This document shows positions 4,519-41,386 of a stretch of 41,386 nucleotides of DNA, one piece after another (position 1 is the first letter of the stretch; the number at the start of each line of letters is the position of its first letter). The notes beneath the pieces are model-generated. The model searched no databases. It saw only the letters and a program-made list of their open reading frames with translations, and was not told the DNA's origin. This stretch comes from an uncultured bacterium (GTDB lineage: Bacteria > Vulcanimicrobiota > CADAWZ01): the NCBI GenBank assembly GCA_902790465.1, contig CADASF010000015.1, forward strand, positions 1-41,386, written 5' to 3'. The translations under genes and the position numbers were made by a program.

Positions 4519-4520
4519 AA

Positions 4521-17635: not shown

Positions 17636-17640
17636 TATTT

Positions 17641-18849: not shown

Positions 18850-18888
18850 ACTATTTTGTTTCATGAATAATTATAAGGAGGTGTTATT

Positions 18889-18966: not shown

Positions 18967-18975
18967 TCGTTTTTA

Positions 18976-19015: not shown

Positions 19016-19057
19016 GATTTTATTTCTTAAAATATTGGCAAACGGAGGTTTGAAGTA

Positions 19058-20272: not shown

Positions 20273-20301
20273 AAAAAAAATAAAAAAAGTTTGAAATTTA
20301 C

Positions 20302-20350
20302 TTGATTTATTTTTATTTTGTGTTATAATATGTTTGTGAGTTCTCTCACA
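20302..20350 (+). promoter_or_regulatory. Strong pilin promoter with 5' transcript hairpin
   Basis: TTGATT (20302-20307) and a consensus TATAAT (20324-20329) are separated by 16 bases. Transcription is predicted to start near 20335-20337, exactly at TGTGAG-TTCT-CTCACA (20335-20350), so the pilin mRNA would begin with a small stem-loop. 5' stem-loops of this kind are known to stabilise abundant bacterial messages. The AAGGAG ribosome binding site is at 20381-20386. Confidence 0.75.
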
Positions 20351-20394
20351 TCGTTATAATAATTTTATAAAATTTTTTTAAAGGAGAAACCAAA

Positions 20395-20850: not shown

Positions 20851-20875
20851 TTGTTAGTATATTAGCTTGATTTTT

Positions 20876-20904
20876 AGGCAACGGTTTTATCCGTTGCCTT
20901 TTTA
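20876..20904 (+). terminator. Pilin terminator
   Basis: AGGCAACGG and CCGTTGCCT form a perfect 9-bp GC-containing stem with a six-base loop, followed by a T-run. It closes the pilin transcript just before the prepilin peptidase gene, so pilD and later genes need read-through or another promoter. Confidence 0.9.
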
Positions 20905-20911
20905 TATTATT

Positions 20912-21799: not shown

Positions 21800-21909
21800 T
21801 TCTCTTTCTTTTATTAGATTTAGAAGGAGTTTAAGTCTGAAAGGCGAATTTTTATTTTCGAACTCTGAAAATGCTTTACTCTTATTTGAAGGGAGGTGAT
21901 TTATCAAAT

Positions 21910-23016: not shown

Positions 23017-23082
23017 AAGGCTGATGATAGTAGTTTTATATTGTTTATTTGGTTTATTTTTAATGGGAGGTGAAATATATAT

Positions 23083-23679
23083 ATGGCAATTAAAGTAGAT
23101 CTTTTGCCAACAGAGCGAAAAAAATTCGGTTTTGATATTGTTATTGCTCTAATGATTCTTTTAATTGCTGGTTCTGCTGTTGGATGTGTTTGGTGGGGAC
23201 AACAACTTGAAGAAAAAGCAAATAAGAAACAAGAGGAAGTTAAGGCTTTACAAGCACAGCTTAAAACAGCTGAAGATGGACTTGGCAATATTGCTGGATT
23301 GAGAAAGAAAGTTAGTGATTTAAAGGCTAATATTAATACTGTTAAAACTCTAAAACTTGACCCAGTAAGATATAGTAATCTTTTAGATGAATTGTCTTCT
23401 CTTCTTCCAAATAATATGTGGGTTAGCTCTATTTCTGTAGATACTCAGAGACATACTCTCACAATGTCAGGACTCGCTGCAGAGCAGCCTGGAGTAAGAC
23501 CAGTTGAATCTATTTCTGGTTTTATGAAAAGTGTAGCAAAGTCAAAATATTTCAAAAATGCTACTATTTCTAGTACTACAAGAGGTAGTATAACTGTTGC
23601 TAAGAACAATTATACAAGTTACTCTTTCAATATAGAACTTGAGTACGATCCAGATAAAGCTATTGGCAATGCAATTTAA
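23083..23679 (+). CDS. pilN: Type IV pilus assembly protein PilN
   Basis: A bitopic inner-membrane protein of the alignment complex. The N-terminal cytoplasmic segment IKVDLLPTERKK is the PilM-binding motif (INLLP in other species). One membrane helix is at about residues 17-38, then a coiled coil (about 42-85) and a small periplasmic domain. The 198-residue length and its position between pilM and pilO fit. GGGAGGTGA precedes the start by about ten bases. Confidence 0.93.
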   Translation: MAIKVDLLPTERKKFGFDIVIALMILLIAGSAVGCVWWGQQLEEKANKKQEEVKALQAQLKTAEDGLGNIAGLRKKVSDLKANINTVKTLKLDPVRYSNLLDELSSLLPNNMWVSSISVDTQRHTLTMSGLAAEQPGVRPVESISGFMKSVAKSKYFKNATISSTTRGSITVAKNNYTSYSFNIELEYDPDKAIGNAI

Positions 23680-23697
23680 TAAAGGAGTTAACAAAAT

Positions 23698-24315
23698 ATG
23701 GAAATTCCAAATTTTATGAAAATTTTCATAGGTCTTATCATAATTGTTTTTATGGTTGCTATATTTTGGGCTACTTCTTGGAGAACACCAATAGAGGTAG
23801 CAAATCAAGCTGATAAAGACATAAAAGAGACAAATGATAAGATTGCTGATGTAAATAGACAAAAAGCAGAGATACCTCAATTAGAGGCAGAGATAGAAAA
23901 GTTAAATCAGGAACTTCAGGCTACAATTCAACAGGAATTGACTCCTGAATCTGAAACAGATTTCGTTCCTTCATATATGGCTGATGTTGAAAAGCTCGTT
24001 GAACAACAGAGAATAAGAATGAACGATCCAGATTTTATTATTACTGCCATGACTCCAGAGGGTAAATCTGATAGTCAATCTTCTCCAAGTGTTCTTTCTT
24101 CTTATCCAGCAAGAAGTTTCCAGATGTCTTTGACAGGTAGATATACAACTGTTATAGATTTCTTGAGACAACTTGGAGCATTAAAGTTGAAAAGACTTGT
24201 TACTGTTAGCAAATTGACACTTTCAGGTTCTCCAAACGCTGAAAATTATAGTCAATCTCCAATGCTTACAATTACAATGCCTATTTCTGTTTACTTAAGA
24301 AAGGAGGGCAATTAA
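23698..24315 (+). CDS. pilO: Type IV pilus assembly protein PilO
   Basis: Partner of PilN in the inner-membrane alignment complex. A short cytoplasmic start is followed by one membrane helix (about residues 9-29) and a coiled coil with Glu/Lys/Gln heptads (about 40-80). A ferredoxin-like periplasmic domain contains SFQMSLTGRYTTVIDFLRQLGAL, a PilO hallmark. The stop codon is immediately followed by the ATG of pilP (TAAATG), indicating translational coupling. Confidence 0.93.
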   Translation: MEIPNFMKIFIGLIIIVFMVAIFWATSWRTPIEVANQADKDIKETNDKIADVNRQKAEIPQLEAEIEKLNQELQATIQQELTPESETDFVPSYMADVEKLVEQQRIRMNDPDFIITAMTPEGKSDSQSSPSVLSSYPARSFQMSLTGRYTTVIDFLRQLGALKLKRLVTVSKLTLSGSPNAENYSQSPMLTITMPISVYLRKEGN

Positions 24316-25110
24316 ATGAGAGATATTTTTAGATTCATTGGAAAAATTGGACTTCTTTCTTTTGCTTTCGCTTGTTTGACAACTTCATCTTTTGTCGCAA
24401 ATGCACAAGAGTCATCTGTCACATCAGGCAAAATACAAATAGATAGTGAAAAAGCAACAACAGCTTCTGATTCATCACAGACATCAGGTTCTGTTTTTAG
24501 AGCTACAGATTCTGCTCCTTATAAATTCAAACAAGGACAGAGAGATCCATTTGTTCCTTTTGGAGGAAATGTTGCACCAACTCCATTAGCACCTAATTCT
24601 TTGAGCAATTTACCTAATGCTAAGGATAATAAAATTATCGAAAAAAAGAAGGTAGATGAAGAAGAAAAAGTTGTAGAAGAACCTATAGTTCTTCCAGTTA
24701 TGGTTACTGGTGTTCTTCTCGGTGGAAATCATTCTTTTGCTATTCTTGCTCCAGCAGGAGATAGGAATGGAGAACCAGGTAAAGCATCTGCAGATAGCTT
24801 TTTAGTTAGTGTTGGTGATAAAGTTGGAGAATATACTGTACAGAGTATAACAAATGATAAAGTAGTTTTGATATGGCAGGGAAAACCTTATAGTATTCCT
24901 GTTCAAAAATATACTGGCAAGTCAAAGGACGGAAAAGTTGTTGTAGGTGAAGCACCTGTAAAATCAACTCTTCCAGTTCCTCAGATAAAGAAAAAAGAAG
25001 AAAAGAAGGATGTTGCTGAACAAAAGGATTCATCAAAGAAAGATGAAGACAATGGTGACAAGAATGCTCCTTCTGATAAAGAACAGAAAAACGAAAAAGA
25101 AGCAAAATAG
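24316..25110 (+). CDS. pilP: Type IV pilus assembly protein PilP
   Basis: A periplasmic protein that links PilN/PilO to the secretin. A signal peptide covers about residues 1-31 (hydrophobic core then SSFVANAQ). C20 follows AFA, so a lipobox is possible but not canonical. The RDPFVPFGG motif (near residue 75) is typical of PilP, and the beta-rich HR domain spans about 130-205 (VTGVLLGGNHSFAIL to PYSIPVQKYTG). The C-terminal ~50 residues are highly charged Lys/Glu/Asp and probably disordered, an extension not usual in characterised PilP. GGAGGG lies within the end of pilO. Confidence 0.88.
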   Translation: MRDIFRFIGKIGLLSFAFACLTTSSFVANAQESSVTSGKIQIDSEKATTASDSSQTSGSVFRATDSAPYKFKQGQRDPFVPFGGNVAPTPLAPNSLSNLPNAKDNKIIEKKKVDEEEKVVEEPIVLPVMVTGVLLGGNHSFAILAPAGDRNGEPGKASADSFLVSVGDKVGEYTVQSITNDKVVLIWQGKPYSIPVQKYTGKSKDGKVVVGEAPVKSTLPVPQIKKKEEKKDVAEQKDSSKKDEDNGDKNAPSDKEQKNEKEAK

Positions 25111-25178: not shown

Positions 25179-27002
25179 ATGATTAAGGTCGAAGGATTGA
25201 AGAATGCTTTTTTCAGTCTTCTAAGTTTTTCTCTTGTTACTGCAGCTGCAGCTCCTGCAATAGCAGCTCCTGCTGCAAATTCTACTCAGGTAAAAGTAGT
25301 ACAGAAGTCTGACGCAAAAGTAGCAAAAGCAGAAAAAACAGAAAAGAAAGTTGTAAAATCAGCTAAATCTGAAGTAAAGAAAACACAAAAAAGTGCTTGT
25401 TCTAAAAATGCAAAAGTATCAAAGAAGAATTCTAAGAGTGCATACAATGCTTCTGGCAAAACAGTTGCACCTGCAAAACTCGTATCTCTTGATTTGGTAA
25501 ATGCAGATTTGATCTATGTTCTCAAAATTCTTGCTAAAGAATTGGGAATGAATATTGTAACAGATCCTACAGTACAGGGTTCAGTAACAATGACATTGAA
25601 AGATGTTCCAGCATCTGGTGCATTGAACATTGTCGTAAAAATGAGTGGATATGATTACAAGAGAGTTGACAATACAATTGTTGTAGGAGATCCAAAGCTT
25701 CTTGCTACAATTCCTACAAATATAATGAATGTCAAAAAAGGTTCTGAAATAACACAGGCTATTCCTCTTGAACATGCTAAAGCAACAGATATTTCAAGTA
25801 TGGTATCATCATCTTATCCTGATGCTAAAGTTCAGGCAGACCCAAGAGGTACAGCTCTTATCGTAAGTGCAGACCCAGAGAGTATGAAAGCTATTCGTTC
25901 ATTCGTTTCACAGCTTGATTACGATGTACCTGCACCAGTTCCACCAAGAACAGAAATTATTGCTCTCAAAGGTGCTAAAGGCGAAGAAGTTTTGCCAATT
26001 CTTCAAAAATTAGTTCCAACACTTTCTTATGATGTTGACAAGAGATTGAATTCACTCATCATAACAGGTGATGAAGGTAGTCTTTCACTTTGTAAAGATT
26101 ATCTTGAACAGCTTGATGCACATTTACAGCAAGTTGCTCTTGATTTGAAGGTTGTTGATTTGACAGAATCAGGTTCAAAATCATTCGGCGGTCAATGGGG
26201 TACTTCATCAGATAATATGGGTGGCGGTATGCTTGTTGATACACAGATGGTAGAATATCCAAGCAACAGAAATGGTGCTGGTGATTATGTTACAAACCAA
26301 TATACCCAAGCAGTAACATCTTATGATGTTCAGCAACTTCAAACTCCTATTGCAACTCCAGATGGTTGGGCTGATCACATTGCAACAAATGTTCAACAGT
26401 TACCTTACAATACAGTATATCCACAAGCACCTGTATATAGTAAAGAAGGTAAAGGCACAGGCTATCCATTCTCAATTGGTTACTTCACAAGAACAGGTTT
26501 GACATTGAACTTCCAGCTTCAAGCATTGGTAACAGCAACAGAAGCTAAGGTTCTTGCATCTCCAAGACTTACAACAAAATCTGGAGAAAAAGCTGAAGTA
26601 CATATCGGTGAAAGATATCCAGTAGTTTACTACGATCCAAGAGCTGGTCAATATCAAGTACAGTATGTTGATATCGGTACAAACGTCGAATTGACAGCAA
26701 CAGTTCTTCCAGATGGATATGTTGAATTGAATATGAAACCAGATATTTCTAACTTGCTCGGTCTCGTAAATGATCAATATCCAAGAACAGCAAATAGAAC
26801 AGTCAATATCACAATGAGAGTAAAAGATGGAGACACAATGGTTCTTGCAGGTCTTCTCAGAGAAGATGAAACAAAGAACACAAGTAAGATTCCTCTCCTT
26901 GGAGATATTCCATTAATTGGACACTTGTTCAAACAGGAATCAGTCCAGAAATCAAAGAACGAAGTTGTTATCATGGTAACTCCTCAAGTTCTTGTTGACT
27001 AG
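25179..27002 (+). CDS. pilQ: Type IV pilus secretin PilQ
   Basis: The outer-membrane pore for the pilus. A signal peptide covers about residues 1-29, with an alanine-rich end. A Lys/Ala-rich, probably disordered stretch (about 35-95) takes the place of the usual AMIN peptidoglycan-binding domains. An STN/N0 domain (KLVSLDLVNADLIYVLKILAKELGMNIV) and two N1-type domains follow (to about residue 310). The secretin domain has VLASPRLTTKSGEKAEVHIGE, the VPLLGDIP-like KIPLLGDIPLIGHLFK and the terminal VVIMVTPQVL. A Gln/Tyr/Pro-rich insertion lies at about 345-430. GGAGG is 13 bases before ATG 25179, rather far, but no other start fits. Confidence 0.94.
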   Translation: MIKVEGLKNAFFSLLSFSLVTAAAAPAIAAPAANSTQVKVVQKSDAKVAKAEKTEKKVVKSAKSEVKKTQKSACSKNAKVSKKNSKSAYNASGKTVAPAKLVSLDLVNADLIYVLKILAKELGMNIVTDPTVQGSVTMTLKDVPASGALNIVVKMSGYDYKRVDNTIVVGDPKLLATIPTNIMNVKKGSEITQAIPLEHAKATDISSMVSSSYPDAKVQADPRGTALIVSADPESMKAIRSFVSQLDYDVPAPVPPRTEIIALKGAKGEEVLPILQKLVPTLSYDVDKRLNSLIITGDEGSLSLCKDYLEQLDAHLQQVALDLKVVDLTESGSKSFGGQWGTSSDNMGGGMLVDTQMVEYPSNRNGAGDYVTNQYTQAVTSYDVQQLQTPIATPDGWADHIATNVQQLPYNTVYPQAPVYSKEGKGTGYPFSIGYFTRTGLTLNFQLQALVTATEAKVLASPRLTTKSGEKAEVHIGERYPVVYYDPRAGQYQVQYVDIGTNVELTATVLPDGYVELNMKPDISNLLGLVNDQYPRTANRTVNITMRVKDGDTMVLAGLLREDETKNTSKIPLLGDIPLIGHLFKQESVQKSKNEVVIMVTPQVLVD

Positions 27003-27027: not shown

Positions 27028-27056
27028 GAGCCATCTAAATAAGATGGCTCTTTTTT
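27028..27056 (+). terminator. Terminator at the end of the pilus operon
   Basis: GAGCCATCT (27028-27036) and AGATGGCTC (27042-27050) form a perfect 9-bp stem around a five-base loop and are followed by six T residues, a classical intrinsic terminator just after pilQ. Confidence 0.9.
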
Positions 27057-27084: not shown

Positions 27085-29145
27085 ATGGATAAAATTTTTG
27101 AATATATAAAGAAATATGATATTTTAATATTGGTTATTTTGGGAAGTTTATTATACTATCCAACATTATTTTATGATTTTGTGTATGATGACATTCCTGC
27201 TGTTATTAACAATGAATCTTTGAATGGAATTAAACAGATAAATTTTTTTCAATTTTTTATCCCAAAATTTGTGATAGAGGCTGTATATACTCCAATTACT
27301 TTTATTGTTTATTGGTTAATAATAAAAATATATGGTGCGAATGCTTTTGCATTTCATTTTATAAATATATTTTTTTATATATCATCTTCAATAGCTTTAC
27401 TTTATTTGTTAAAAAAGATAATAAATAATTATTCAATAGCTTTTTTTGCAGTTATTTTGTATATATTATATCCTTGTCATATAGAAAATACTGTTTGGAT
27501 ATCAGCAATGGGATATAATATAGCTACATTATTTTTCTTTTTGTCATTTTTGTATTTTATAATTGCTTTTGATGAAAATAAGGGTTCAAATTACATATAT
27601 TCTGTTGTATTTTATATATTGGCAATATTAAGCCAGCCCATGGCTGTTACTCTTCCTGCTATTTTGGTATTATGGGTATATTGTTTTAGACGAGAGAGAT
27701 TGAAAGAATTAATAAAATATATTTTTGCTTATATTCCATTTTTATTAATATATTTATTTTTATTTAGAAATAATGTTTCAAATTCTTATAGATTTAGTGA
27801 ACAAATTTCTCATTCTTTTATTGAAAAATTGTCTGTCTTTGGAAAATATTTAGTACATTCTATATTTGCCTTTGATTTAAATCCTTTCTATACTAATATT
27901 TCTTCATTTTATATAGTTTTTATTATTCCATTTCTTTGTTTTCTTTTTGTTGTTATTCATAAAAAAAATAAAATTTTGGAGTTTTTAGTCGGTTCTTATT
28001 TAATTTCTTTATTTCCCTATTTAGGAATATTTTTTGATAATGTTCTTTTACTTTCTGATAGATATTTATTATTGGCTTCTGTTTCGTCCTGTATTTTAAT
28101 ATCTATGTTTTGTTTTTGGATATTTGAGAAATTAAAAGAAAAATCTTTATTAAAATATATGTCTTTTTTCATCTTTATTGTTTTGTATTTTTCTTTATCT
28201 TTAGCTTATTTGCCAGTTTGGAATAATAATAGTTCTTTTTGGAGTTATTCTTATGAAAATTCTTCAAAGAAAGATATTAATATTTCATCGAGTTATGGTA
28301 CTATTCTTTTGAATAATGGTAAATTTGTTGAAGCAAGTAATGTTGGAGATGAATTAATAAAATTATCTCCTAAAAATAAAGAGGGATATATACTAAAAAT
28401 TCATTCTTTACTTGCATTAAATGAAATAGATAAAGCTATAGCTGTTTGTTCAAAATTTAAAGAAGCTATGCCAGAATCTTTTGAATCTTATTTGTATTTT
28501 TCAGATATTAATTTTAAATTACAAAACTATGATAAGTCCATGGAATATCTTAAAGAAGCTCATGGTAAAGCTCTAAAATATGCTTCTTATACTGCTTTTG
28601 ACAATAAATTATTTACTGATAGAATGATGAGGTTATATTATGTAAATTCAGATTCAAATAAGTTTATTGAGAGTTTAGAGGAAAGTTCAAGACAATTTAA
28701 ATTGTTGAATGATGATGGTGAATTTTCTAAAATTTTAAAGGAAAAAAAATATAGTGATAGGGAAGAGATATGCTTAAATTATTTGAAAAGAAATAACAGT
28801 GAATATTCAAGATATATTTTGATGCTTTTAAGTTGTCTTTATATGAAAGAAACTTATAAAGAAGATGCTCCACAAGTTATGAGAGAGCTTTTAAAAGAAA
28901 TGAATAAAGCTGAAGAGTTTATAAAAAAAGGTGATAATAAGTCGGCTGAAAATATTTATTTATCAATAATTTCAAAAAATAAATATATTTGTGAAGCATA
29001 TTATAATTTAGGATTTTTATATTTACGAATAAACAGACAAATTGAGGCAAATAAAATTTTTAATAAAATTTTGGAAATAAATCCAAATGATGATCAGATA
29101 AAACAAATATTAGTAAATTTAGGTTTGAATACAAAACATGAGTAA
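27085..29145 (+). CDS. TMTC-like GT-C membrane protein with C-terminal TPRs, array copy 1
   Basis: A 686-residue protein with about ten hydrophobic segments in residues 12-380 and a soluble helical tail. The first external loop carries VYDDIP, whose Asp-Asp fits the catalytic acidic pair of GT-C glycosyltransferases. Further TMTC/PMT-like marks are YPCHIENTVWISAMGYN (the first His of the HPCHIE block is Tyr here), SQPMAVTLPAI and SDRYLL. The tail has TPR-like helices, the last one being EAYYNLGFLYLRINRQIEA. The family is thought to transfer sugars from a lipid carrier to exported proteins; that is inference here. Copies 1 and 6 form a subtype sharing VSNSYRFS and FPYLGI. ATG 27085 is chosen by homology with the other copies; a TTG twelve bases upstream is open. 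No good ribosome binding site is visible. Confidence 0.8.
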   Translation: MDKIFEYIKKYDILILVILGSLLYYPTLFYDFVYDDIPAVINNESLNGIKQINFFQFFIPKFVIEAVYTPITFIVYWLIIKIYGANAFAFHFINIFFYISSSIALLYLLKKIINNYSIAFFAVILYILYPCHIENTVWISAMGYNIATLFFFLSFLYFIIAFDENKGSNYIYSVVFYILAILSQPMAVTLPAILVLWVYCFRRERLKELIKYIFAYIPFLLIYLFLFRNNVSNSYRFSEQISHSFIEKLSVFGKYLVHSIFAFDLNPFYTNISSFYIVFIIPFLCFLFVVIHKKNKILEFLVGSYLISLFPYLGIFFDNVLLLSDRYLLLASVSSCILISMFCFWIFEKLKEKSLLKYMSFFIFIVLYFSLSLAYLPVWNNNSSFWSYSYENSSKKDINISSSYGTILLNNGKFVEASNVGDELIKLSPKNKEGYILKIHSLLALNEIDKAIAVCSKFKEAMPESFESYLYFSDINFKLQNYDKSMEYLKEAHGKALKYASYTAFDNKLFTDRMMRLYYVNSDSNKFIESLEESSRQFKLLNDDGEFSKILKEKKYSDREEICLNYLKRNNSEYSRYILMLLSCLYMKETYKEDAPQVMRELLKEMNKAEEFIKKGDNKSAENIYLSIISKNKYICEAYYNLGFLYLRINRQIEANKIFNKILEINPNDDQIKQILVNLGLNTKHE

Positions 29146-31189
29146 GATTTTTGAATATATAAAAAAATATGATATTTTAATATTACTTGTTTTTGGTTTT
29201 TTAATATATTTTCCATCTTTATTTTATGATATTTTATCTTATGATGATTTACCTTATATTATAAATAATGAATATTTAAATGGGCAACTATCAGTTCGTT
29301 TCATTGATTTTTTTATTCCAAAATTTATTAGAGATGATATTTATACTCCATTAACATTTTTAGTCTATTGGTCGATAATAAAAATATTTGGTATAAACGC
29401 TTTTGCATTTCATTTTGTCAATGTGTTATTTTATATATTGTCATCAGTTGCTTTATTCTATTTGTTGAAAAAGCTGATAAGTAATTATTCATTAGCTTTT
29501 TTTGCAACTATTTTGTATATCTTACACCCTTGTCATATAGAATGTACTGCTTGGATATCAGCAATGGGCTATAATATTGCTGGTTTATTTTTTTATTTAT
29601 CATTTTTATATTTTATATTGGGATTTGACGAAAATAAAAATATAAATTATATATATTCTGTTATATTTTATATATTGGCAATATTCAGTCAGCCAATTGC
29701 TGTTACTCTCCCTGCTATTTTGGTATTATGGGCATATTGTTTTAGACGAGAGAGATTGAAAGAATCGATAAAATATATTTGTGCTTACATACCATTTTTG
29801 TTTATATATATTTTTTTGTTTAAAAAGACTGTTTCAAATTCAAGATTTCATGACCTGTTTGAGTATAATTTTTTAGAAAAAATATCTTTTTTAGGTCAGT
29901 ATGTGTTTAATTCCTTTATTCCAATAAATTTATGTCCTATTCAGCCTATACCATCTTTATTTTCTATATTATATTTTATTATTTTTATTATTATATTGTT
30001 TCTTTTTAGAAAAAATATTATTTTTCTTTTTTTTGCTTCATATTGGTTTATATCTATTCTTCCTTATTCTAATATTTTTTTCCCAACCGCTATTCCAGTT
30101 GCTGACAGGTATTTATTATTATCTTCAATTTCATCTTGTGTTTTAATATCTTACATATCTTTTTATATTTTTAATAAATTTAAAGATAAAATGTTGGTAA
30201 AATATATATCATTTTTCTTTTTCTTGATGATTTATTTAATATCTTATTTTATTTATCTTCCTGTTTGGAAGGAATATTTAGCTTTGTGGAATTATTCTTA
30301 TAGAATTAATCCAACAGATGTAAATATAAAGCAATATTATTCTAAATGTTTAATTTTATTTGAACGATATGATGAAGCAATTATTTTGGCAGATGAAATA
30401 ATTAAAGATAAACCAGATTTATTTGATGGATATGAAATAAAAATATTGGCTTTAATGAAAAAGAATGCACTAAAAGATGCTATTGATGTTTGTTTTATTG
30501 TTAAAAATATCATGCCCAATAATTATATGAATTATTTATATCTTTTTGATATTTATGCTATGCAAGAAGAATATGACAAAGCCTCTAAATATTTAGAATA
30601 TGGATATATGACAATTAATAAAAATAATTTATACAAGAATGAAAGAAAATATTTATTGGCTAAAAGATATTTGACTATATCTTATGTAAATGCGGATATA
30701 GATAAGTTTATTGAAAATTTAAAGATTATTTCTAATGATTTTAATTTGTTTGATGATAATTGTGAGTTTTCTAAAATTTTAGGAGAAAAAAAATATAGAT
30801 ATAGGGAAGAGATATGTTTAAATTATTTAAAGAAATATAATACACAATATTCAGTGTATGTTATAAACCTTTTGAGTTGTTTATATATGAAAGAGACTTA
30901 TAAAGAGGATGCTCAGAAAGTTATGAGATCTCTTTTAAAAGAAATGAATAAAGCTCAAAATTTTATAAGTAAAGGTGATAATAATTCAGCAGAACATATA
31001 TATTTATCAATAATTTTAAAAAATAAATATATGTATGAAGCATATTGTAATTTAGGAATTTTATATTTACGAACAAATAGACAGATTGAGGCAAAGAAAA
31101 TTTTTGATAAGGTTTTGGAAATAAATCCAAATGATGAACAGATAAAACAAATATTAGTAAGTTTAGGTGAAAATACAAAAAATGAGTAA
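29138..31189 (+). CDS. TMTC-like GT-C membrane protein with C-terminal TPRs, array copy 2
   Basis: The 683-residue second paralogue overlaps copy 1 by eight bases (ATGAGTAA), so translation is probably coupled. It shows the intact motif set SYDDLPY (D36, D37), HPCHIECTAWIS (H130, H133, E135), SQPIAVTLP (about 185-193) and DRYLL (323-327). Residues 1-375 hold the membrane region and about 400-683 the TPR-like tail, ending in a clear TPR (EAYCNLGILYLRTNRQIEAKKIF). The variable external segment is mosaic: it starts like copies 1 and 6 (FKKTVSNS) but continues like copies 4 and 7 (NLCPIQPIPS). Extremely AT-rich. Confidence 0.82.
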   Translation: MSKIFEYIKKYDILILLVFGFLIYFPSLFYDILSYDDLPYIINNEYLNGQLSVRFIDFFIPKFIRDDIYTPLTFLVYWSIIKIFGINAFAFHFVNVLFYILSSVALFYLLKKLISNYSLAFFATILYILHPCHIECTAWISAMGYNIAGLFFYLSFLYFILGFDENKNINYIYSVIFYILAIFSQPIAVTLPAILVLWAYCFRRERLKESIKYICAYIPFLFIYIFLFKKTVSNSRFHDLFEYNFLEKISFLGQYVFNSFIPINLCPIQPIPSLFSILYFIIFIIILFLFRKNIIFLFFASYWFISILPYSNIFFPTAIPVADRYLLLSSISSCVLISYISFYIFNKFKDKMLVKYISFFFFLMIYLISYFIYLPVWKEYLALWNYSYRINPTDVNIKQYYSKCLILFERYDEAIILADEIIKDKPDLFDGYEIKILALMKKNALKDAIDVCFIVKNIMPNNYMNYLYLFDIYAMQEEYDKASKYLEYGYMTINKNNLYKNERKYLLAKRYLTISYVNADIDKFIENLKIISNDFNLFDDNCEFSKILGEKKYRYREEICLNYLKKYNTQYSVYVINLLSCLYMKETYKEDAQKVMRSLLKEMNKAQNFISKGDNNSAEHIYLSIILKNKYMYEAYCNLGILYLRTNRQIEAKKIFDKVLEINPNDEQIKQILVSLGENTKNE

Positions 31190-33218
31190 AATTTGTGAAT
31201 ATATCAAAAAATATGATATTTTAATATTGATTGTGTTTGGAATAGTATTATATTTTCCAGCTTTTTTTTATGATATTCTATCTTATGATGATTTACCTTA
31301 TATAGTAAATAATCAATATTTAAATGGTAGCCTTCCTATTAAATTTTTTGATTTTTTTATTCCAAATTTTATTATAGATGATATTTATAGTCCGATATTG
31401 TTTATACTGTATTGGTCAATTATACATATATTTGGAATTAATGCTTTTGCTTTTCATTTTGTAAATATATTTTTTTATGTTTTGTCAGCAGTTGCGTTAT
31501 TTTATTTGTTGAGAAAGATAATAAATAATTATTCAGTAGTTTTTTTTGCTGTTATTTTGTATATATTACATCCTTGTCATGTTGAATGTACAGCTTGGAT
31601 ATCTATAATGGGCTATAATATTGCCGTTTTCTTTTTTTATTTATCTTTTTTATGTTTTATAATTGCTTTTGATGAAGATAATAAGTTAAATTATCTATAT
31701 TCTGTTGTCTTTTATGTATTTGCAATATTGAGTCAACCGATTGCAGTTACGCTTCCTGCTATATTAGTGCTATGGTTATATTTTTTCAGACGAGAAAGAC
31801 TAAAAGAATCAATAAAATATATTTGTGGATATATTCCTTTCTTGTTAATATATTTATATTTGTATAGTCATACTATATTGAAAACAGATAGATTTGATAT
31901 AGTCAATTATAATTATTTTGAAAAATTGAGCATTCTAGGGTATAATATATTGAATTCTTTTATCCCTATTAATTTATCAGTTGCTCCATTATTTCCAAAT
32001 TCATTTTCTATTATATATGTATTTATTTTAATCTTTTTAATCATTTATTTTAGAAAAAATAATAATTATTTATTTTTTATTCTTTTTGGAATAATTTCTA
32101 TTCTTCCTTATTCCAATATATTTTTTAATATTGCCATAGCTTTTGCAGATAGATATTTGTTATTATCTTCTGTTTCATCTTGTGTTTTAATATCTTATTT
32201 ATCTTTTTATATTTTTGATAAGTTTAAAGAACAAAAAATAATTAAATATTTAGGTTTTGTTTTTTTTATTGTATTTTTTCTATTTTCTTTTTTATTATAT
32301 TTTCCAGTTTGGAAAAATGATGAAAAATTTATTAATTATACTTATAATTCTAACCCAGATCATGTAGTGTCTTTGGTTTGTTATTCTAATTTTTTAGTTA
32401 GTCATAATAGATATGATGAAGCTATAATTGTTGTTGATAAATTAATTGAAAAATTTCCAAGTGTTTATGAAGGATATGATTTGAAGTTTAGAATCCTTGT
32501 AGAACAAAAATTTTATGATAAAGCATTAGATTTTTGTAAAAAAATAAAAGAAAATAATCCAGAATACTATAAAGCATATTTGTTTATGTCTGATATTTAT
32601 ATGTTGTTGAGAGATTATGATAAATCTAATGAATATTTGAGTATGGCTGAAGAAAAATGTAAAAAGTACAATTTGTTTAAAGGGGAAAATTTATTTCTTT
32701 TTGCAAATAAAAAAATGTTATTGTCATTTTTTACATCTGATTTGAAAAGTTTTATTGAAAATTTAAAGATTGTTTCAAATGATTTTAAATTATTTGGAGA
32801 TGACAGTGAGTTTTTTAAAATTTTGGACACAACTGATTATAAGAGTAGGGAAGAGATTTGTTTAAATTATCTAAAAAAGCATAAAAGTCAATATTCAAAT
32901 TATATTTTTATGTTGCTTAGTTGTCTATATATGGAAGATAATTATAAAGATAATGCTTCAAAAGTTATGAGATCTATTTTAAAAGATATTCGCAATGCAC
33001 AAGAAAATATAAATAAAGGTGATAATATTTCTGCTGAGAAAATATATTTATCAGTAATTTCAAAAAATAAATATATATATGAGGCATATTATAGTTTAGG
33101 ATTTTTATATTTACAGACAAATAGGCAAAATGATGCAAAGAAAATTTTTAATAAGATTTTGGAAATAAATCCAAATGATGAGCAGATAAGTCAAATATTG
33201 TTGAGTTTAGGAAACTAA
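31182..33218 (+). CDS. TMTC-like GT-C membrane protein with C-terminal TPRs, array copy 3
   Basis: The 678-residue third paralogue starts at ATG 31182, inside the same ATGAGTAA eight-base overlap used between copies 1 and 2. An in-frame ATG at 31167 would add five residues but breaks the MSK-x-x-EYIKKYD start shared by the family. The motifs SYDDLPY, HPCHVECTAWIS, SQPIAVTLP and DRYLL are intact. The variable loop (YSHTILKTDRF then NLSVAPLFPNS) is its own type. The TPR tail ends EAYYSLGFLYLQTNRQNDAKKIF. It is separated from copy 4 by only the three bases ATA. Confidence 0.82.
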   Translation: MSKICEYIKKYDILILIVFGIVLYFPAFFYDILSYDDLPYIVNNQYLNGSLPIKFFDFFIPNFIIDDIYSPILFILYWSIIHIFGINAFAFHFVNIFFYVLSAVALFYLLRKIINNYSVVFFAVILYILHPCHVECTAWISIMGYNIAVFFFYLSFLCFIIAFDEDNKLNYLYSVVFYVFAILSQPIAVTLPAILVLWLYFFRRERLKESIKYICGYIPFLLIYLYLYSHTILKTDRFDIVNYNYFEKLSILGYNILNSFIPINLSVAPLFPNSFSIIYVFILIFLIIYFRKNNNYLFFILFGIISILPYSNIFFNIAIAFADRYLLLSSVSSCVLISYLSFYIFDKFKEQKIIKYLGFVFFIVFFLFSFLLYFPVWKNDEKFINYTYNSNPDHVVSLVCYSNFLVSHNRYDEAIIVVDKLIEKFPSVYEGYDLKFRILVEQKFYDKALDFCKKIKENNPEYYKAYLFMSDIYMLLRDYDKSNEYLSMAEEKCKKYNLFKGENLFLFANKKMLLSFFTSDLKSFIENLKIVSNDFKLFGDDSEFFKILDTTDYKSREEICLNYLKKHKSQYSNYIFMLLSCLYMEDNYKDNASKVMRSILKDIRNAQENINKGDNISAEKIYLSVISKNKYIYEAYYSLGFLYLQTNRQNDAKKIFNKILEINPNDEQISQILLSLGN

Positions 33219-33221
33219 ATA

Positions 33222-35258
33222 ATGAGTAAAGTTTTGGAACAAATAAAAAAATATGATATTTTAATTTTAGTTATTTTTGGCTTTTTATTACATTATTCAT
33301 CTCTTTTTTATGATTTTGTTGGCGATGACATTGTTTTACTTATAACAAATCAATATTTAAATGGAGAACTTCCGATCAATATTTTTGATTTTTTTATTCC
33401 TAATTTCATTATTAATGAAATATATACTCCATTGACTTTTATTGTCTATTGGCTAATTATAAAAATATTTGGAATAAGTTCTTCTGCTCTTCATTTTGTA
33501 AATGTTATTTTTTATATATTGTCTTCAGTTGCGTTATTTTATTTATTAAAAAAGATAATAAACAATTATTTTGTTGTTTTTTTTGCAACTATTTTGTATA
33601 TATTACATCCTTGCCATATAGAGTGTACTGTTTGGATATCTGGAATGGGATATAATATATCGGCATTATTTTTCTTTTTATCTTTTTTATATTTTATTAT
33701 TGCATTTGATGAGAAGAAAAAGTTAAATTATATTTATTCTGTTATATTTTATATTTTAGGAATATTAAGTCAACCTCTTGCTGTTATATTGCCTGCAATA
33801 TTGTTTTTATGGGTGTATTTTTTTAGAAAAGAAAGATTAAAAGAATCAATAAAATATATTAGTGCCTATATTCCTTTTTTGTTGTTATATTTATATTTAT
33901 ATCGTCAAACAGTTTTAAAAGATTATAGATTTGTAGCAACAGATTATAATATTTTTGAAAAATTTAGCATTATAGGCTTTGACTTTTTTAATAGTTTTTT
34001 CCCTGTAAATTTATGTCCTGTTCAGCCAATGCCTTCTTTATTTTTTATATGTGGCTTTATTGGTTTTATTATTTTGCTATATTTTATAAAAGATAATAAA
34101 GAATTATTGTTTTTTGGTTTTTGGGGAATAATTTCAATACTTCCTTATTCTAATCTTTTTTTTAATATGGTCTTTCCTTTAACAGATAGATATTTATTAT
34201 TAATTTCTGTCTCTTCAAGTGTATTGATTTCTTATTTTTCATTTTATTTATTTAATAAGTTTAATGATAAAAAAATATTTAAATATATCTGTTTTATCTT
34301 TTTTTTGATATTGTATTTTTTATCTTTTATTTCTTATCTTCCTATTTGGAAAAATAATAATGTTTTGCATATCTATACTTATAATGTAAATCCAGATAAT
34401 TCTTATTGTGCAGGAGTATATGCTCAAATTTTAATCAATGATAAAAAATATGATGAAGCTATGCAAATAATTGATAAAATTATTAGTAAATATCCAAGTT
34501 ATTATGAGGTCTATGAGTTAAAAATAAAGATTTTGATTGAAAAGTCTTTATTTGATGAAGCTATTGCTATTTGTTTTAAGTTAAAAGAAATAATGCCAGA
34601 ATATTATAAAATATATTTAGACCTTTTTGATATATATATGTCTTTACAAGATTATGATAATGCTTCAAAATTTCTTGATTACGCTTATGTTAAAGCTAAA
34701 GAACATAATTTATATAAAAATGATAAAGTAGATTTATTTGCTAATAAAAGATTGGTTTTGTCTTATGTGAATGCTGATATAGATAATTATATTGATAATT
34801 TTAAAATTCTTTCAAATAATTTTCAGTTATTAAATGATAGTAGTAAATTTTCAGAAATTTTAAATGAGAATGATTATAAAATTAAAGAAAGAGATATACT
34901 TGAATATTTGAAAAAATATAATAATAATCAATATTCAAGATATATAATAAATTTATTGAGTTGTTTTTATATGAAAGAGACTTATAAAGATAATGCTTCT
35001 GAAGTAATGAGATCTCTTTTAAAAGAAATGAATAAAGCACAAGATTTTATAAATAAAGGTGATAATAATTCTGCAAAACAGATATATTTGTCAGTAATTT
35101 CAAAAAATAAATATATGTATGAAGCATATTATAATTTAGGAATTTTATATTTACAGACAAATAGACAAATTGAGGCAAAAGATATATTTAATAAGATTTT
35201 GGAAATGAATCCAAACGATGAACAGATAAAACAAATATTAATGGGTTTAGGAAACTAA
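33222..35258 (+). CDS. TMTC-like GT-C membrane protein with C-terminal TPRs, array copy 4
   Basis: The 678-residue fourth paralogue is the most divergent in the first loop: FVGDDIVLLITNQ replaces SYDDLPYIVNN, although the Asp-Asp pair is kept. HPCHIECTVWISGMGYN, SQPLAVILPAI and TDRYLL are present. Its loop reads YRQTVLKDYRF and then NLCPVQPMPS, similar to copies 2 and 7 in the second half. The ribosome binding site is the TTTAGGAAAC at the end of copy 3, about nine bases before the ATG, within the terminal Leu-Gly-Asn codons of the upstream gene. The tail includes RYIINLLSCFYMKETYKDNASEV and a final TPR. Confidence 0.82.
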   Translation: MSKVLEQIKKYDILILVIFGFLLHYSSLFYDFVGDDIVLLITNQYLNGELPINIFDFFIPNFIINEIYTPLTFIVYWLIIKIFGISSSALHFVNVIFYILSSVALFYLLKKIINNYFVVFFATILYILHPCHIECTVWISGMGYNISALFFFLSFLYFIIAFDEKKKLNYIYSVIFYILGILSQPLAVILPAILFLWVYFFRKERLKESIKYISAYIPFLLLYLYLYRQTVLKDYRFVATDYNIFEKFSIIGFDFFNSFFPVNLCPVQPMPSLFFICGFIGFIILLYFIKDNKELLFFGFWGIISILPYSNLFFNMVFPLTDRYLLLISVSSSVLISYFSFYLFNKFNDKKIFKYICFIFFLILYFLSFISYLPIWKNNNVLHIYTYNVNPDNSYCAGVYAQILINDKKYDEAMQIIDKIISKYPSYYEVYELKIKILIEKSLFDEAIAICFKLKEIMPEYYKIYLDLFDIYMSLQDYDNASKFLDYAYVKAKEHNLYKNDKVDLFANKRLVLSYVNADIDNYIDNFKILSNNFQLLNDSSKFSEILNENDYKIKERDILEYLKKYNNNQYSRYIINLLSCFYMKETYKDNASEVMRSLLKEMNKAQDFINKGDNNSAKQIYLSVISKNKYMYEAYYNLGILYLQTNRQIEAKDIFNKILEMNPNDEQIKQILMGLGN

Positions 35259-35261
35259 ATA

Positions 35262-37295
35262 ATGAATAAATTTTTAGAATATATAAAAAAATATGATGTT
35301 TTAATATTACTTATATTTGGATTGTTAATATATTATCCATCTTTATTTTATGATGTTTTATCTTATGATGATTTACCTTATATTGTAAATAATGAATATT
35401 TAAATGGACGAGTTTCAGTTAATTTTAGTGATTTTTTTGTTCCAAATTTAATCTGTAAAGATATTTATACTCCTTTGTCATTTATAATATATTGGTTAAT
35501 TATACATATATTTGGAATCAATGCTTTTGTTTTTCATTTTGTAAATGTATTATTTTATATATTATCTTCAGTTGTTTTATTTTACTTGTTGAAAAAGATA
35601 ATAAATAATTATTCGATCGTTTTTTTTGCAACTGTGTTGTACATATTACATCCTTGTCATGTAGAATGCGTGGCTTGGATATCTGCAATGGGATATAATA
35701 TAGCAAGTTTATTTTTCTTTTTATCATTTCTATATTTTATGTCTGCAGTTGATGAAAATAAGAAATTAAATTATATATATTCTGTTGTATTTTATATATT
35801 TGCAATATTGGGGCAACCTGTTGCTGTTACTCTTCCTGCTATTTTAGTATTATGGCTATATTGTTTTAGAAGAGAGAAATTGAAAGAATCGATAAAATAT
35901 ATTTGTGCTTATATACCTTTTTTATTTGTATATTTATATCTATATAGTCAGACAATATTAAAAGCGAGATTTAAAGAAAATTTAAATTATACTTTTTGGG
36001 AAAAATTTAGTATTTGGGGATTTGATTTATTTAATTCTGTTATTCCAATTAATTTATGTGTATATAAATCTTTTCCGTCATTTTATTTTATTATAATTTT
36101 CGTTATATTTTTATTTATAATTTATCTTTTTAGAAAAAATATTTATTTTATTTTTTTCCTTGGATTTGCAGTAATTGGCATTTTACCTTATTCCAACATT
36201 GCTTTTAATCTATATGATCCTATATTAGATAGATATTTATTGTTCCCATCTGTTTCAGCTTGTATTTTAATATCTTATTTATCTTTTTATCTATTTGATA
36301 AATTTAATAATAGTAATTTATTAAAATATATGTCTTTTATATTTTTTATCGTTTTGTATTTTGTGCCTTTTATTACTTACCTGCCAATTTGGAAAGATGA
36401 TAGGAGTTTTTGGCTTTATAATTATAATGTTTCTGGAAATTTAATGTCTGCTTCTGCTTATTCAAAAATTGTTTTACTTGAAGAACATAAATATGACGAA
36501 GCTTTGATTTTGGCAGATAAATTGATTAAAAAATATCCAAGGGCTTTTGATGGCTATGAAATTAAAATGAAGGCTTTAATAGGAATGGGATATTTAAATG
36601 ATTCATTGAGTGTTGCTTTAAAAGTAAAAGAGTTGATTCCTGAAAATTATTCAATTTATATTTATCTTTTTGATATTTATATATCAATGCAAGATTATGA
36701 CAATGCTCAAAAATCGTTAGATATAGCTTATATTAAGGCTAAAGAACAGAATTTATGCAAAAATGAGATTCTTAATTCTCTTCTAAATAAGAGTTTGATC
36801 TTGAATTATGTTTTAGTTGAACCAGATAAATTTATTGACAATTTTAAAATTATTTCAAATAATTTTAAATTAATGAGAGACAATGGTGAATTTTCTAATA
36901 TTTTAAATGAAAAAGATTATGGAATTAAAGAAAAAATTTGTTTGAATTATTTAAAAAAATATACAGAATATCAAAATTCAATTATTAGACTTTTGAGCTG
37001 TTTGTATATGCAAGAAACTTATAAAGAGAAGGCTCCTAAAATTATGAAGTCTCTTTTAAAAGATATGAATAAAGCAGAAGAATTTATAAAAAATGGTGAT
37101 AATAATTCTGCAGAAAAAATATATTTATCAGTAATATCTAAAAATAAATATATATATCTTGCATATCAAAATTTGGGAATGCTATATTTAAATAGCAATC
37201 GTCAAAATGAGGCAAAAGAAATTTTTAGAAAAATGTTGGAAATAAATCAAAATGATGATCAGATTAGGCAAATATTATTGAGTTTAGGAAACTAA
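35262..37295 (+). CDS. TMTC-like GT-C membrane protein with C-terminal TPRs, array copy 5
   Basis: The 677-residue fifth paralogue begins three bases after copy 4, with the same embedded TTTAGGAAAC ribosome binding site. SYDDLPY, HPCHVECVAWIS, GQPVAVTLPAI (Gly for Ser in the SQP block, shared with copy 7) and LDRYLLF are seen. The variable loop has YSQTILKARF then NLCVYKSFPS. The tail is slightly diverged: the end TPR is LAYQNLGMLYLNSNRQNEAKEIF and the usual NPND reads NQND. Confidence 0.82.
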   Translation: MNKFLEYIKKYDVLILLIFGLLIYYPSLFYDVLSYDDLPYIVNNEYLNGRVSVNFSDFFVPNLICKDIYTPLSFIIYWLIIHIFGINAFVFHFVNVLFYILSSVVLFYLLKKIINNYSIVFFATVLYILHPCHVECVAWISAMGYNIASLFFFLSFLYFMSAVDENKKLNYIYSVVFYIFAILGQPVAVTLPAILVLWLYCFRREKLKESIKYICAYIPFLFVYLYLYSQTILKARFKENLNYTFWEKFSIWGFDLFNSVIPINLCVYKSFPSFYFIIIFVIFLFIIYLFRKNIYFIFFLGFAVIGILPYSNIAFNLYDPILDRYLLFPSVSACILISYLSFYLFDKFNNSNLLKYMSFIFFIVLYFVPFITYLPIWKDDRSFWLYNYNVSGNLMSASAYSKIVLLEEHKYDEALILADKLIKKYPRAFDGYEIKMKALIGMGYLNDSLSVALKVKELIPENYSIYIYLFDIYISMQDYDNAQKSLDIAYIKAKEQNLCKNEILNSLLNKSLILNYVLVEPDKFIDNFKIISNNFKLMRDNGEFSNILNEKDYGIKEKICLNYLKKYTEYQNSIIRLLSCLYMQETYKEKAPKIMKSLLKDMNKAEEFIKNGDNNSAEKIYLSVISKNKYIYLAYQNLGMLYLNSNRQNEAKEIFRKMLEINQNDDQIRQILLSLGN

Positions 37296-37298
37296 ATA

Positions 37299-39356
37299 AT
37301 GAGTAAGTTTTTTGAATATATAAAAAAATATGATATTTTAATATTTGTTATTTTTGGATTTTTGTTATACTGCCCATCATTGTTTTTTGACTTTTTATAT
37401 GACGATGTTCCATATATTGTTCAAAATGAATATTTAAATGGGACTTGTTCTGTTAATTTGTTTCAATTTTTTATTCCAAAATTTGTGTTAGAAACAGTTT
37501 ATACTCCTTTGACATTTATTGTTTATTGGCTTATATTGAAAATATTTGGCATAAACTCTTTTGCTTTTCATTTTGTTGGTATCTTTTTTTATGTATTCTC
37601 ATCTGTTGTTTTATTCTATTTGTTAAAAAAGATAATAGATAATTATGTTGTTGCTTTTTTTGCAACTATTTTGTATATATTGCACCCTTGTCATGTAGAA
37701 TGTACAGCTTGGATATCGGCAATGGGATATAATATATCGGCATTATTTTTCTTTTTATCTTTCTTATATTTTATAATAGCGTTTGATGAAAATAAGAAGT
37801 TAAATTATATATATTCTGTCATATTTTATATATTTGCAATATTGAGTCAACCTGTTGCAGTTACTCTTCCTGCTATTTTATTTTTGTGGGTATATTGTTT
37901 TAGAAAAGAAAAATTAAAAGAATCAATAAAATATATTTGTGCCTATCTACCATTTTTGTTTTTATATGTCTTTCTGTTTAAAAATACTGTTTCAAATTCT
38001 TATAGATTTAGTGATTTTATAGACCATTCTTTTTTAGATAAACTATTGACATTTGGTCATTATATTTTTAATGCCTTTTTGCCAGTAAATTTAAGTCCTT
38101 TTTATGTTTCTTCGCCTTTTATTTGTTTAATTTTTACTATTATTGGATTTATTTTAATATTTTTTATTATTTATAAGAAAAATAATTTTTTTATTTTTTT
38201 CCTTGGATTTTATTTGATAACAATATTTCCATATCTTGGAATAGTTTTTGACAATATGATTTTAGTATGTGATAGATATTTATTGTTATCTTCAATATCA
38301 TTTTGTTTTTTTATTTCTATTTTTAGTTTCTATTTATTTGAAAAATTAAATAATAAAATTTTATTAAAATATATTTCATTCGTAGTTTTTATGATTTTGT
38401 ATTTTGTTTTATCTTTTGTTTATTTGCCAATTTGGAAAAATAATGAATCTTTTTGGACTTATGCTTATCATAATTCTTATAAAAAAAATATTTCAATTTT
38501 AACTAGTTATGTAACAGTTCTTTTAAATAATGGTAAATATGATGAAGCAAGTATTTTAGCAGATGATATAATAGAACAATATCCAAAATTTGCAGAAGGA
38601 TATGTGACAAAAATACAATCAATGATGGCTTTAAATGATATTGAAAATAGTTTAAAGGTTTGTAAAAAATTTAGAGATAATATTCCAGAATGTCTTGATG
38701 TTTATATTTATTTTTTCGATATATATATTAATTTGCAAGAATATGATAAGGCTTTAGAATCTCTTAAATATGCTTATTATATAGCTAATAAATATAATTT
38801 GTATAAAAATGATAAAGTTTATTTATTTGCTAATAAACAGCTTACATGGTCTTATATAAATGCCGAATCAAATAAATTTATAGAGAACTTTAAAATTATT
38901 TCAAATAATTTTAAGTTATTAGATGATAATGGCAAATTTTATGAAATTTTAAATAAAGATGATTATAAAAGTAGAGAAGATATATGTTTAGATTATTTAA
39001 AAAAATATAAAAGTCAATATTCAAATTATATTTTTATGTTACTTAGTTGTCTATATATGGAAGAAACTTATAAAGATAATGCCTCAAAAATTATGAGATC
39101 TTCTTTAAAAGAAATTAATAAAGCACAAGAATCTATAAAAAAAGGTGATAATATTTCTGCAGAGCATATATATTTAAATATTATAAAGAAAAATAAATAT
39201 ATGTATGAAGCATATTATAATTTGGGTATTTTGTATTTGCAGACAAATAGACAAGTTGAGGCAAAAAATATATTTAATAAGATTTTGGAAATAAATCCAA
39301 ATGATGAGCAGATAAGGCAAATATTGTTGAGTTTGGGAGTTTGGGAAACTAAATAA
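37299..39356 (+). CDS. TMTC-like GT-C membrane protein with C-terminal TPRs, array copy 6
   Basis: The 685-residue sixth paralogue belongs with copy 1: FLYDDVPY, FKNTVSNSYRFSDF, NLSPFYVSSP, FPYLGIVFDN and FWTYAYHNSYKKN are shared patterns. HPCHVECTAWIS, SQPVAVTLP and CDRYLL are intact. Its end differs from all others: an 8-bp duplication (39331-39346) changes the terminal Leu-Gly-Asn-stop into Leu-Gly-Val-Trp-Glu-Thr-Lys-stop and makes the stop overlap the next start by one base (TAATG). Its last ~160 bases are nearly identical to those of copy 7. Confidence 0.82.
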   Translation: MSKFFEYIKKYDILIFVIFGFLLYCPSLFFDFLYDDVPYIVQNEYLNGTCSVNLFQFFIPKFVLETVYTPLTFIVYWLILKIFGINSFAFHFVGIFFYVFSSVVLFYLLKKIIDNYVVAFFATILYILHPCHVECTAWISAMGYNISALFFFLSFLYFIIAFDENKKLNYIYSVIFYIFAILSQPVAVTLPAILFLWVYCFRKEKLKESIKYICAYLPFLFLYVFLFKNTVSNSYRFSDFIDHSFLDKLLTFGHYIFNAFLPVNLSPFYVSSPFICLIFTIIGFILIFFIIYKKNNFFIFFLGFYLITIFPYLGIVFDNMILVCDRYLLLSSISFCFFISIFSFYLFEKLNNKILLKYISFVVFMILYFVLSFVYLPIWKNNESFWTYAYHNSYKKNISILTSYVTVLLNNGKYDEASILADDIIEQYPKFAEGYVTKIQSMMALNDIENSLKVCKKFRDNIPECLDVYIYFFDIYINLQEYDKALESLKYAYYIANKYNLYKNDKVYLFANKQLTWSYINAESNKFIENFKIISNNFKLLDDNGKFYEILNKDDYKSREDICLDYLKKYKSQYSNYIFMLLSCLYMEETYKDNASKIMRSSLKEINKAQESIKKGDNISAEHIYLNIIKKNKYMYEAYYNLGILYLQTNRQVEAKNIFNKILEINPNDEQIRQILLSLGVWETK
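39178..39338 (+). repeat. Near-identical 3' segment of copy 6 (matches 41226-41386 in copy 7)
   Basis: These 161 bases differ from 41226-41386 at only two positions by my reading, far closer than the rest of the two genes. This indicates recent duplication or gene conversion. Confidence 0.85.
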
Positions 39357-41386
39357 TGAGTAAATTTTTTGAATATATAAAAAAGTATGATATTTTAATA
39401 TTAGTTATTTTAGGAATAATATTATATTTTCCATCTTTATCTTATGATATTTTATCTTATGATGATATGCCATTTATTATAAAAAACAATTATTTAAATG
39501 GAAATTTATCTATAAATTTTTATCAGTTTTTTATTCCTAATTTTGTGATGGAGTCTATTTATACGCCTTTAACATTTATTATTTATTGGGCTATTATAAA
39601 GATATTTGGTCTAAGTTCTGTTGCATTTCATTTTGTAAATATATTATTTTATATATCTTCTTCTATTGTTTTATTCTATTTGTTGAAAAAAATAATAAAT
39701 AACTATTCTGTAGTTTTTTTTGCAACTGTTTTGTATATATTACATCCTTGTCGTATAGAATGTACTGCTTGGACATCGGCAATGGGCTATAATATTGCAA
39801 CATTATTTTTCTTTTTATCATTTTTATATTTTATATTGGGATTTGATGAAAATAAAAAGTTAAATTATATATATTCAGTTGTATTTTATATATTTGCAAT
39901 ATTAGGTCAACCTATTGCAGTTACTCTTCCTGCTATTTTAGTATTATGGGTGTATTGTTTTAGACGAGAGAGATTTAAAGAATCTATAAAATATATTAGT
40001 GCTTATGTCCCATTTTTGCTTTTATATCTTTATTTATATAGCCAGACAATATTGAAAACTTTTAGATTTAATTTAAAAGATTTTAGTTTTTTAGAAAAGT
40101 TGAGTATATCTGGATTTTATGTATTTAATTCTTTTGTTCCTATAAATTTATGCCCAATCCAGCCTATACCTAATTTGTATTTTATAATTCCTTTATTAAT
40201 ATTTTTATTATTTATCTATCTATTTAGAAAAAATAATATATTTATATTTTTTGTATGTTTTGGATTAATTACTATTTTTCCTTATTTGAATATATTTTAT
40301 TCAATGGAAATTCCAATATCTGACAGATATTTAGGTTTATCATCAATTTCGTCTTGTATTTTTATTTCTTATTTATCTTTTTATTGTTTAGAAAAATTTA
40401 AAGATAAAACAATAATTAAATATATGCCTTTTATATTTTTTGTTGTTTTGTATCTATTTTCTTTTTTGTTCTATCTTCCTATTTGGAAAAATGATAAAAT
40501 ATTATGGATATATGCCTATAATATAAATCCTAATCATATTATAGTTGCTGATTCTTTTGGTAAAGTATTGATATCAGATAAAAAATATGATGAAGCTGTT
40601 ATTTTATCTGAGAAAATGATAAAAGAAAATCCCTTTTTTTATGAAGGTTATGATTTAAAAATAAAAGCATTAATGGCAGATAATAAATGGAAAGAAGCAT
40701 TAGCTTTTTCTCTACAAGTTAAAGATATTTTTTTAAGGAATTTTAATACTTATTTATATTTATCCGATATATATGTTTTTTTACAAAATTATGATGAAGC
40801 TGAAAAAAGTTTGAATATTGCCGAAGAAATATGTAAAAAATATTGGGGCTTAAAACATGAAAAAATAGAGTTTTTTGCTTATAGAAGATTAATTTTAGAT
40901 TATGTTTCTTCTAATACAGATGATTTTATTAAGAATTTTCAGATTATTTCAAATAATTTTAAATTATTAGGTGATAATGGTGAATTTTATAGTATTTTAA
41001 ATGAAAACAGTTATAACAATAGAGAAAAAATATGTTTAAATTATCTGAGTCATTATAATACGACATATTCAAGATATGTGATAAATTTATTGAGTTGTTT
41101 GTATATGAAAGAGACTTATAAAGAAGAATCTGCAAAAATTATGAGTTCTCTTTTGAAAGAAATGGATAAAGCACAAGAATCTATAAATAAAGGCGATAAT
41201 AATTCTTCTGAGAAGATATATTTAGATATTATAAAGAAGAATAAATATATGTATGAAGCATATTATAATTTGGGTATTTTGTATTTACAGACAAATAGAC
41301 AAGTTGAGGCAAAAAATATATTTAATAAGATTTTGGAAATAAATCCAAATGATGAGCAGATAAGGCAAATATTGTTGAGTTTGGGA
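39356..41386 (+). CDS. TMTC-like GT-C membrane protein with C-terminal TPRs, array copy 7 (3' end cut by window)
   Basis: The seventh paralogue reads open from ATG 39356 for 677 codons to the window edge, ending at the Ser-Leu-Gly that precedes the final Asn and stop in copies 3-5, so almost nothing is missing. SYDDMPF, GQPIAVTLPAI and SDRYLG are present, but the histidine block reads HPCRIECTAWTS: the second histidine, conserved in the six other copies, is Arg. The variable loop is YSQTILKTFRF then NLCPIQPIPN. The array may continue beyond the window. Confidence 0.8.
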   Translation, partial: MSKFFEYIKKYDILILVILGIILYFPSLSYDILSYDDMPFIIKNNYLNGNLSINFYQFFIPNFVMESIYTPLTFIIYWAIIKIFGLSSVAFHFVNILFYISSSIVLFYLLKKIINNYSVVFFATVLYILHPCRIECTAWTSAMGYNIATLFFFLSFLYFILGFDENKKLNYIYSVVFYIFAILGQPIAVTLPAILVLWVYCFRRERFKESIKYISAYVPFLLLYLYLYSQTILKTFRFNLKDFSFLEKLSISGFYVFNSFVPINLCPIQPIPNLYFIIPLLIFLLFIYLFRKNNIFIFFVCFGLITIFPYLNIFYSMEIPISDRYLGLSSISSCIFISYLSFYCLEKFKDKTIIKYMPFIFFVVLYLFSFLFYLPIWKNDKILWIYAYNINPNHIIVADSFGKVLISDKKYDEAVILSEKMIKENPFFYEGYDLKIKALMADNKWKEALAFSLQVKDIFLRNFNTYLYLSDIYVFLQNYDEAEKSLNIAEEICKKYWGLKHEKIEFFAYRRLILDYVSSNTDDFIKNFQIISNNFKLLGDNGEFYSILNENSYNNREKICLNYLSHYNTTYSRYVINLLSCLYMKETYKEESAKIMSSLLKEMDKAQESINKGDNNSSEKIYLDIIKKNKYMYEAYYNLGILYLQTNRQVEAKNIFNKILEINPNDEQIRQILLSLG

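Follow-up and report, generated by a model that had tools for sequence, protein, structure and literature searches.

The window, that is, the whole 41,386-nucleotide stretch analysed, is contig C15 of the genome of a rumen-type bacterium. Positions 27085–41386 are filled by seven consecutive, intact paralogous ORFs of 677–686 residues, all on the forward strand, homologous over their full length and 53–62% identical in pairwise comparison. Neighbouring ORFs overlap or are separated by a few nucleotides. With the end of each ORF given first with and then without the stop codon, the copies are A1 (27085–29145/29142; 686 residues; an alternative TTG start at 27073 is possible), A2 (29138–31189/31186; 683 residues), A3 (31182–33218/33215; 678 residues; a GTG start at 31167 is listed mechanically), A4 (33222–35258/35255; 678 residues), A5 (35262–37295/37292; 677 residues), and A6 (37299–39356/39353; 685 residues). 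Copy 7 (A7; 39356–41386; 677 residues) is cut by the contig end just 5′ of its stop codon. None of the copies contains an internal stop, and all are open. With copy 2 as tblastn query, every window copy is matched at E ≤ 2e-239, indicating that the array is not a chance arrangement. The blocks on which the first-pass annotation had based the family are all present, namely a shared Asp-Asp loop, an HPCHIE block (YPCHIE in copy 1 and HPCRIE in copy 7), an SQP/GQP..LP block, and C-terminal TPRs.

The array had been described as seven-copy. Seven copies are real and consecutive, but the count is understated. Contig C12 of the same genome carries six more copies at its right-hand end, all in one orientation (60833–72940; L017:7816–19941, reverse strand), the outermost of which is cut by the contig end. 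On its far side, the C12 array is followed by a very stable hairpin (z −13.2), three convergent tRNA genes in opposite orientation (tRNA-Val/Asp/Phe), and rpoB-rpoC. Both arrays run into assembly breaks, as would fit a single array, and the C15 and C12 copies are probably one array. No overlap between the ends of C15 and C12 was found that would join them. Therefore, the genome total of at least 13 copies (seven on C15 and six on C12) is a minimum, and we infer contiguity.

The predicted topology comprises 11 TM helices, with the N-terminus inside and the TPRs outside. The K/R content per residue is 0.16–0.34 in inner loops and 0–0.08 in outer loops. Helix number and loop charge together indicate that the TPR half is periplasmic. 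The acidic site, DD, is located in the first loop (EL1), which is external in the predicted topology. PMT_2 (PF13231), covering residues ~70–223, scores above the Pfam gathering cut-off in four of the seven window copies (copies 3–6) and, in a genome-wide search, in 11 of the 13 genome copies. The TMTC/DUF1736 Pfam model gives no match with the seven copies at 0.001 or with copy 2 at 0.01, and a sequence-profile search of the PDB returns no matches.

An AF2 model of copy 2 has a pLDDT of 91.8. A fold search with the full-length model matches only TPR proteins. As TPR proteins swamped this search, the membrane half was folded separately (pLDDT 85.4, pTM 0.89). All nine PDB matches of the membrane half at E ≤ 1e-3 are GT-C enzymes (OST/STT3, PglB, and ArnT chains), with TM-scores of 0.49–0.62 by query, and AglB and Pmt4 rank just below the cut-off. 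The GT-C assignment made in the first-pass annotation is borne out by this search, and the N-terminal half of the copies is predicted to be a GT-C fold. ArnT (5f15) and the PMT family (Pmt4) resemble the array proteins in fold, in an acidic EL1 site, and in the polyprenyl-phosphate-sugar donors that the array proteins would use. However, ArnT has no TPRs, PMT enzymes have a MIR domain instead, and identity in the fold alignments is 10–14%.

Seven motifs have been described for TMTC proteins (PMC7801869), and we scored the copies against them. The DD of M1 is conserved in all 12 copies that have the region, and the EL5 arginine of ERxxY (M7) is conserved in 13 of 13, as DRY, ERY, or NRY. In contrast, RxD (M3) is replaced in every copy, by M-G-Y or, in the last C12 copy, by L-G-Y, and K-E of KE(T/Q)xxT (M4) reads Q-P throughout. 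Most of SHKSYRP (M2) is missing as well. Relatives in a genome of the same family (G003) carry the same kind of M3/M4 change (Q-P or Q-Q, and G-Y), whereas some GT-C/TPR relatives in genomes G004 and G007 retain ERKD and K at these places. The array proteins thus share with the animal ER O-mannosyltransferases TMTC1–4 an 11-TM GT-C half followed by C-terminal TPRs on the outer or luminal side, the DD in EL1, and the ERxxY-region arginine in EL5. They differ in being bacterial, in their at least 13-fold tandem repetition, and in having no TMTC-specific Pfam match. The earlier label "TMTC-like" therefore holds for the two-part build, the periplasmic TPRs, the DD, and the arginine, but not for M3 and M4. 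With DD and arginine kept and RxD and K lost in all copies, the proteins are, judged by their motifs, a divergent subfamily of TMTC-like build.

The replacement in all copies of the motifs that contact sugar and phosphate in TMTC (RxD, and K of KE..T) makes both the donor and transferase activity itself uncertain. The copies could instead be dead or degenerating GT-C/TPR paralogues that act as scaffolds or lipid-carrier binders, or the product of neutral tandem expansion. A related single gene conserved in the genus, in which the whole DD loop is missing, would fit this reading in addition to the M3 and M4 changes. However, neither DD nor the EL5 arginine has been lost anywhere in the set, every copy is open, and the median dN/dS of the core is 0.29; we consider this explanation highly improbable.

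Divergence between the copies is uneven. In the first 240 columns of the alignment and at the last TPRs, mean pairwise identity is ~0.56–0.75, but it falls to 0.3–0.45 in EL4 and a large part of the middle TPRs. Median dN/dS values beyond the core are 0.59 in EL4–TM9, 0.42 in TM10–11, 0.66 in the middle TPRs, and 0.35 in the end TPRs. EL4 and the middle TPRs both face the periplasm in the predicted topology, which suggests that they may serve acceptor recognition. Selection for new acceptors need not be the cause, as relaxed constraint could also explain the faster change of EL4 and TPRs. The proposal that copies differ in acceptor or sugar choice gains on the acceptor side, since divergence sits where an acceptor could be read.

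The closest pair of copies shifts along the gene. A1 and A6 form a 100/99 clade in the middle-TPR tree and are disfavoured as a clade at the C-terminus (p 0.043), and A6 with A7 is rejected in the middle TPRs (p 0.0002), the tested clades having been picked post hoc, after inspection of the data. Yet the last parts of A6 and A7 share an exact run of 99 nucleotides at the 3′ end. The conflict between segment trees for A1, A6, and A7, together with the shifting closest pair, indicates sequence exchange between copies, and we read these patterns as signs of gene conversion.

The genome encodes a DPMS-type GT2, a polyprenyl-phosphate-mannose-type synthase (5mlz, E 2e-66). Such a synthase is found in 128 of the 149 phylum genomes. 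Being near-universal in the phylum, it supports the feasibility of a lipid-linked donor only and is not specific to the array. In G007, several related GT-C/TPR genes adjoin GT2-like genes, which fits the reading of the copies as transferases using lipid-linked sugars. Two other PMT_2 proteins are encoded on contigs C5 and C67, and a Pfam search of the genome finds neither Wzy_C-type (PglL/TfpO-like) nor STT3-type transferases.

The acceptor need not be a protein. The array might modify a surface polysaccharide, an LPS-like lipid, or another non-protein acceptor, with the TPRs serving as an assembly platform or scaffold. GT-C folds also serve lipid and polysaccharide acceptors, and ArnT is among the fold matches. 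In addition, the related genes in G007 sit, as read by eye, among genes resembling those for GT2 enzymes, methyltransferases, and nucleotide-sugar enzymes. However, no polysaccharide cluster accompanies the array, the long periplasmic TPRs suggest protein binding, as in TMTC, and the strong TPR divergence between copies is less expected with one common glycan acceptor. Therefore, we regard a non-protein acceptor as unlikely.

Upstream of the array lies a type IV pilus operon on the same strand, with pilB, pilT, pilC, pilA, pilD, pilM, pilN, pilO, and pilP at 15905–25110, for which membership of the array is unsupported, and the secretin gene pilQ at its end (25179–27002). Directly 5′ of full-length pilB, a short MshEN protein with a partial T2SSE ATPase domain (15085–15852) appears to be a truncated pilB paralogue. 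The array does begin directly after pilQ, as had been noted, with copy 1 starting at 27085. However, an intrinsic terminator is predicted between them on the forward strand at 27028–27050 (9-bp stem and T tract; fold z −4.65), and the description of the array as attached to the operon is therefore an overstatement. In the same-genus MAG (G001; contig of RUG13696), pilQ is likewise followed by a hairpin and T tract and then by a copy cut by the contig end, indicating that both the adjacency and the separation are kept within the genus.

Pilins are known O-glycosylation targets, and PglL, PilO (TfpO), and TfpW are membrane transferases that act on pilins from the periplasmic side, some of them encoded near pilus genes, as the array adjoins pilQ. 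The array could then belong functionally to the pilus locus, its copies acting on the pilin or on further pilus proteins and differing in the sugar added or the site modified. Consistent with this, the pilQ adjacency recurs in two species of the genus, and the Pfam search of the genome finds no PglL-like or STT3-type enzyme. The array differs from the PglL group in that Wzy_C is not matched in this genome and its adjacency is broken by the terminator, which is predicted in both species. Outside the genus the linkage fails. The genome G002 (98% complete; same family) has pil genes with an opposite-strand gene after pilQ, and a genome-wide search finds no array copies in it. G003 has three tandem copies between DnaJ-like and ExbD-like genes, one copy after rplA, and none after its pilQ. 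In G004, the copies are scattered and pilQ is unlinked. The Ser/Thr-rich tail of the pilin, previously taken as a hint, does not track the array: G001 carries an array copy but its pilin lacks the tail, and the pilin of the copy-free G002 has it. A survey of relatives thus upholds pilus linkage within the genus, but other genera of the family have pilus genes and no array copies, or copies that are not next to pilQ; with linkage limited to the genus and a terminator between, neither co-transcription nor conserved linkage with the pilus genes is found. With a predicted transcription stop between the array and the pilus genes, the pilus reading is weak. Adjacency, its sole support, hints weakly at the pilus as one possible target, and we consider variable pilin glycosylation distinctly improbable.

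In G003, the single GT-C/TPR copy (L051:4864–6915) lies directly after tuf-nusG-rplK-rplA, an odd site for a glycosyltransferase. Clear homologues of the array proteins (E ≤ 1e-20) occur in only nine of the 149 phylum genomes, and among these 149 a multi-copy array of such size is found in this genome only. A scan of contigs for relatives of the array returns one locus, that of the same-genus rumen MAG RUG13696. One-to-one orthology of the copy in that MAG with copy 1 was not seen, as most copies are at about the same distance from it. A GC content of 21% had pointed to recent horizontal origin, but this was rejected; GC at fourfold sites is 0.08–0.11, the same as in the pil genes and rpoB, indicating that the low GC reflects amino-acid composition. 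Bacterial single-gene GT-C/TPR proteins (for example in G004 and G007; L054, L055, L056, and L057) share the two-part architecture and a homologous membrane half. Unlike the array copies, they are mostly scattered, apart from two nearly adjacent genes in G007; several keep ERKD and the K of M4, and some have longer and more regular TPRs. A related membrane protein encoded beside a dtd-like gene is also kept in both species of the genus (L019:10119–11426 on C14; L053:1624–2937 on C89 of G001). Neither the DD loop nor the TPRs remain in this protein, and it may be an inactive GT-C relative under constraint.

Taken together, we think it reasonably likely that the locus is a self-standing tandem set of at least 13 GT-C transferases that use lipid-linked sugars, each with a periplasmic TPR solenoid and diversified acceptor-facing parts. 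Each copy would most likely take a sugar from a polyprenyl-phosphate carrier, possibly of the polyprenyl-phosphate-mannose type, and use the Asp-Asp site in EL1 for transfer to an acceptor, presumably protein, outside the inner membrane. With a constant catalytic core, and with EL4 and the middle TPRs diversified and reshuffled between copies, the outcome would be a repertoire of transferases varying in acceptor, not chemistry. No linked acceptor gene was found at the array. A more specific version, in which acceptor-specific periplasmic transferases form a genomic repertoire with a fixed core, EL4/TPR modules shuffled by gene conversion, and an altered (MGY/QP) donor pocket, is a tentative and rather doubtful proposal. 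If the copies are transferases, ~26 kb of the genome is given to diversified surface or periplasmic glycosylation.

The large tandem GT-C/TPR expansion is real and unusual. In the literature searched, on bacterial TMTC-like proteins, GT105, TPR-linked pilin glycosylation, and tandem expansions, such an array is undescribed and bacterial TMTC relatives are uncharacterised. Its 13 naturally occurring versions share a constant core but vary in a loop and in the TPRs, and offer a comparison set for acceptor choice in GT-C/TPR proteins.

Elsewhere in the window, genes resembling an orphan type I specificity subunit, Sir2, and GmrSD restriction proteins lie within 8 kb (1226–8866) and may form a small defence cluster. 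They are followed by a gene for a class A beta-lactamase-like protein (8881–9669), which scores well under family cut-offs. In addition, a single ORF at 11097–12365 fuses phosphate propanoyltransferase (PduL/EutD-like) and deoxyribose-phosphate aldolase (DeoC) domains.
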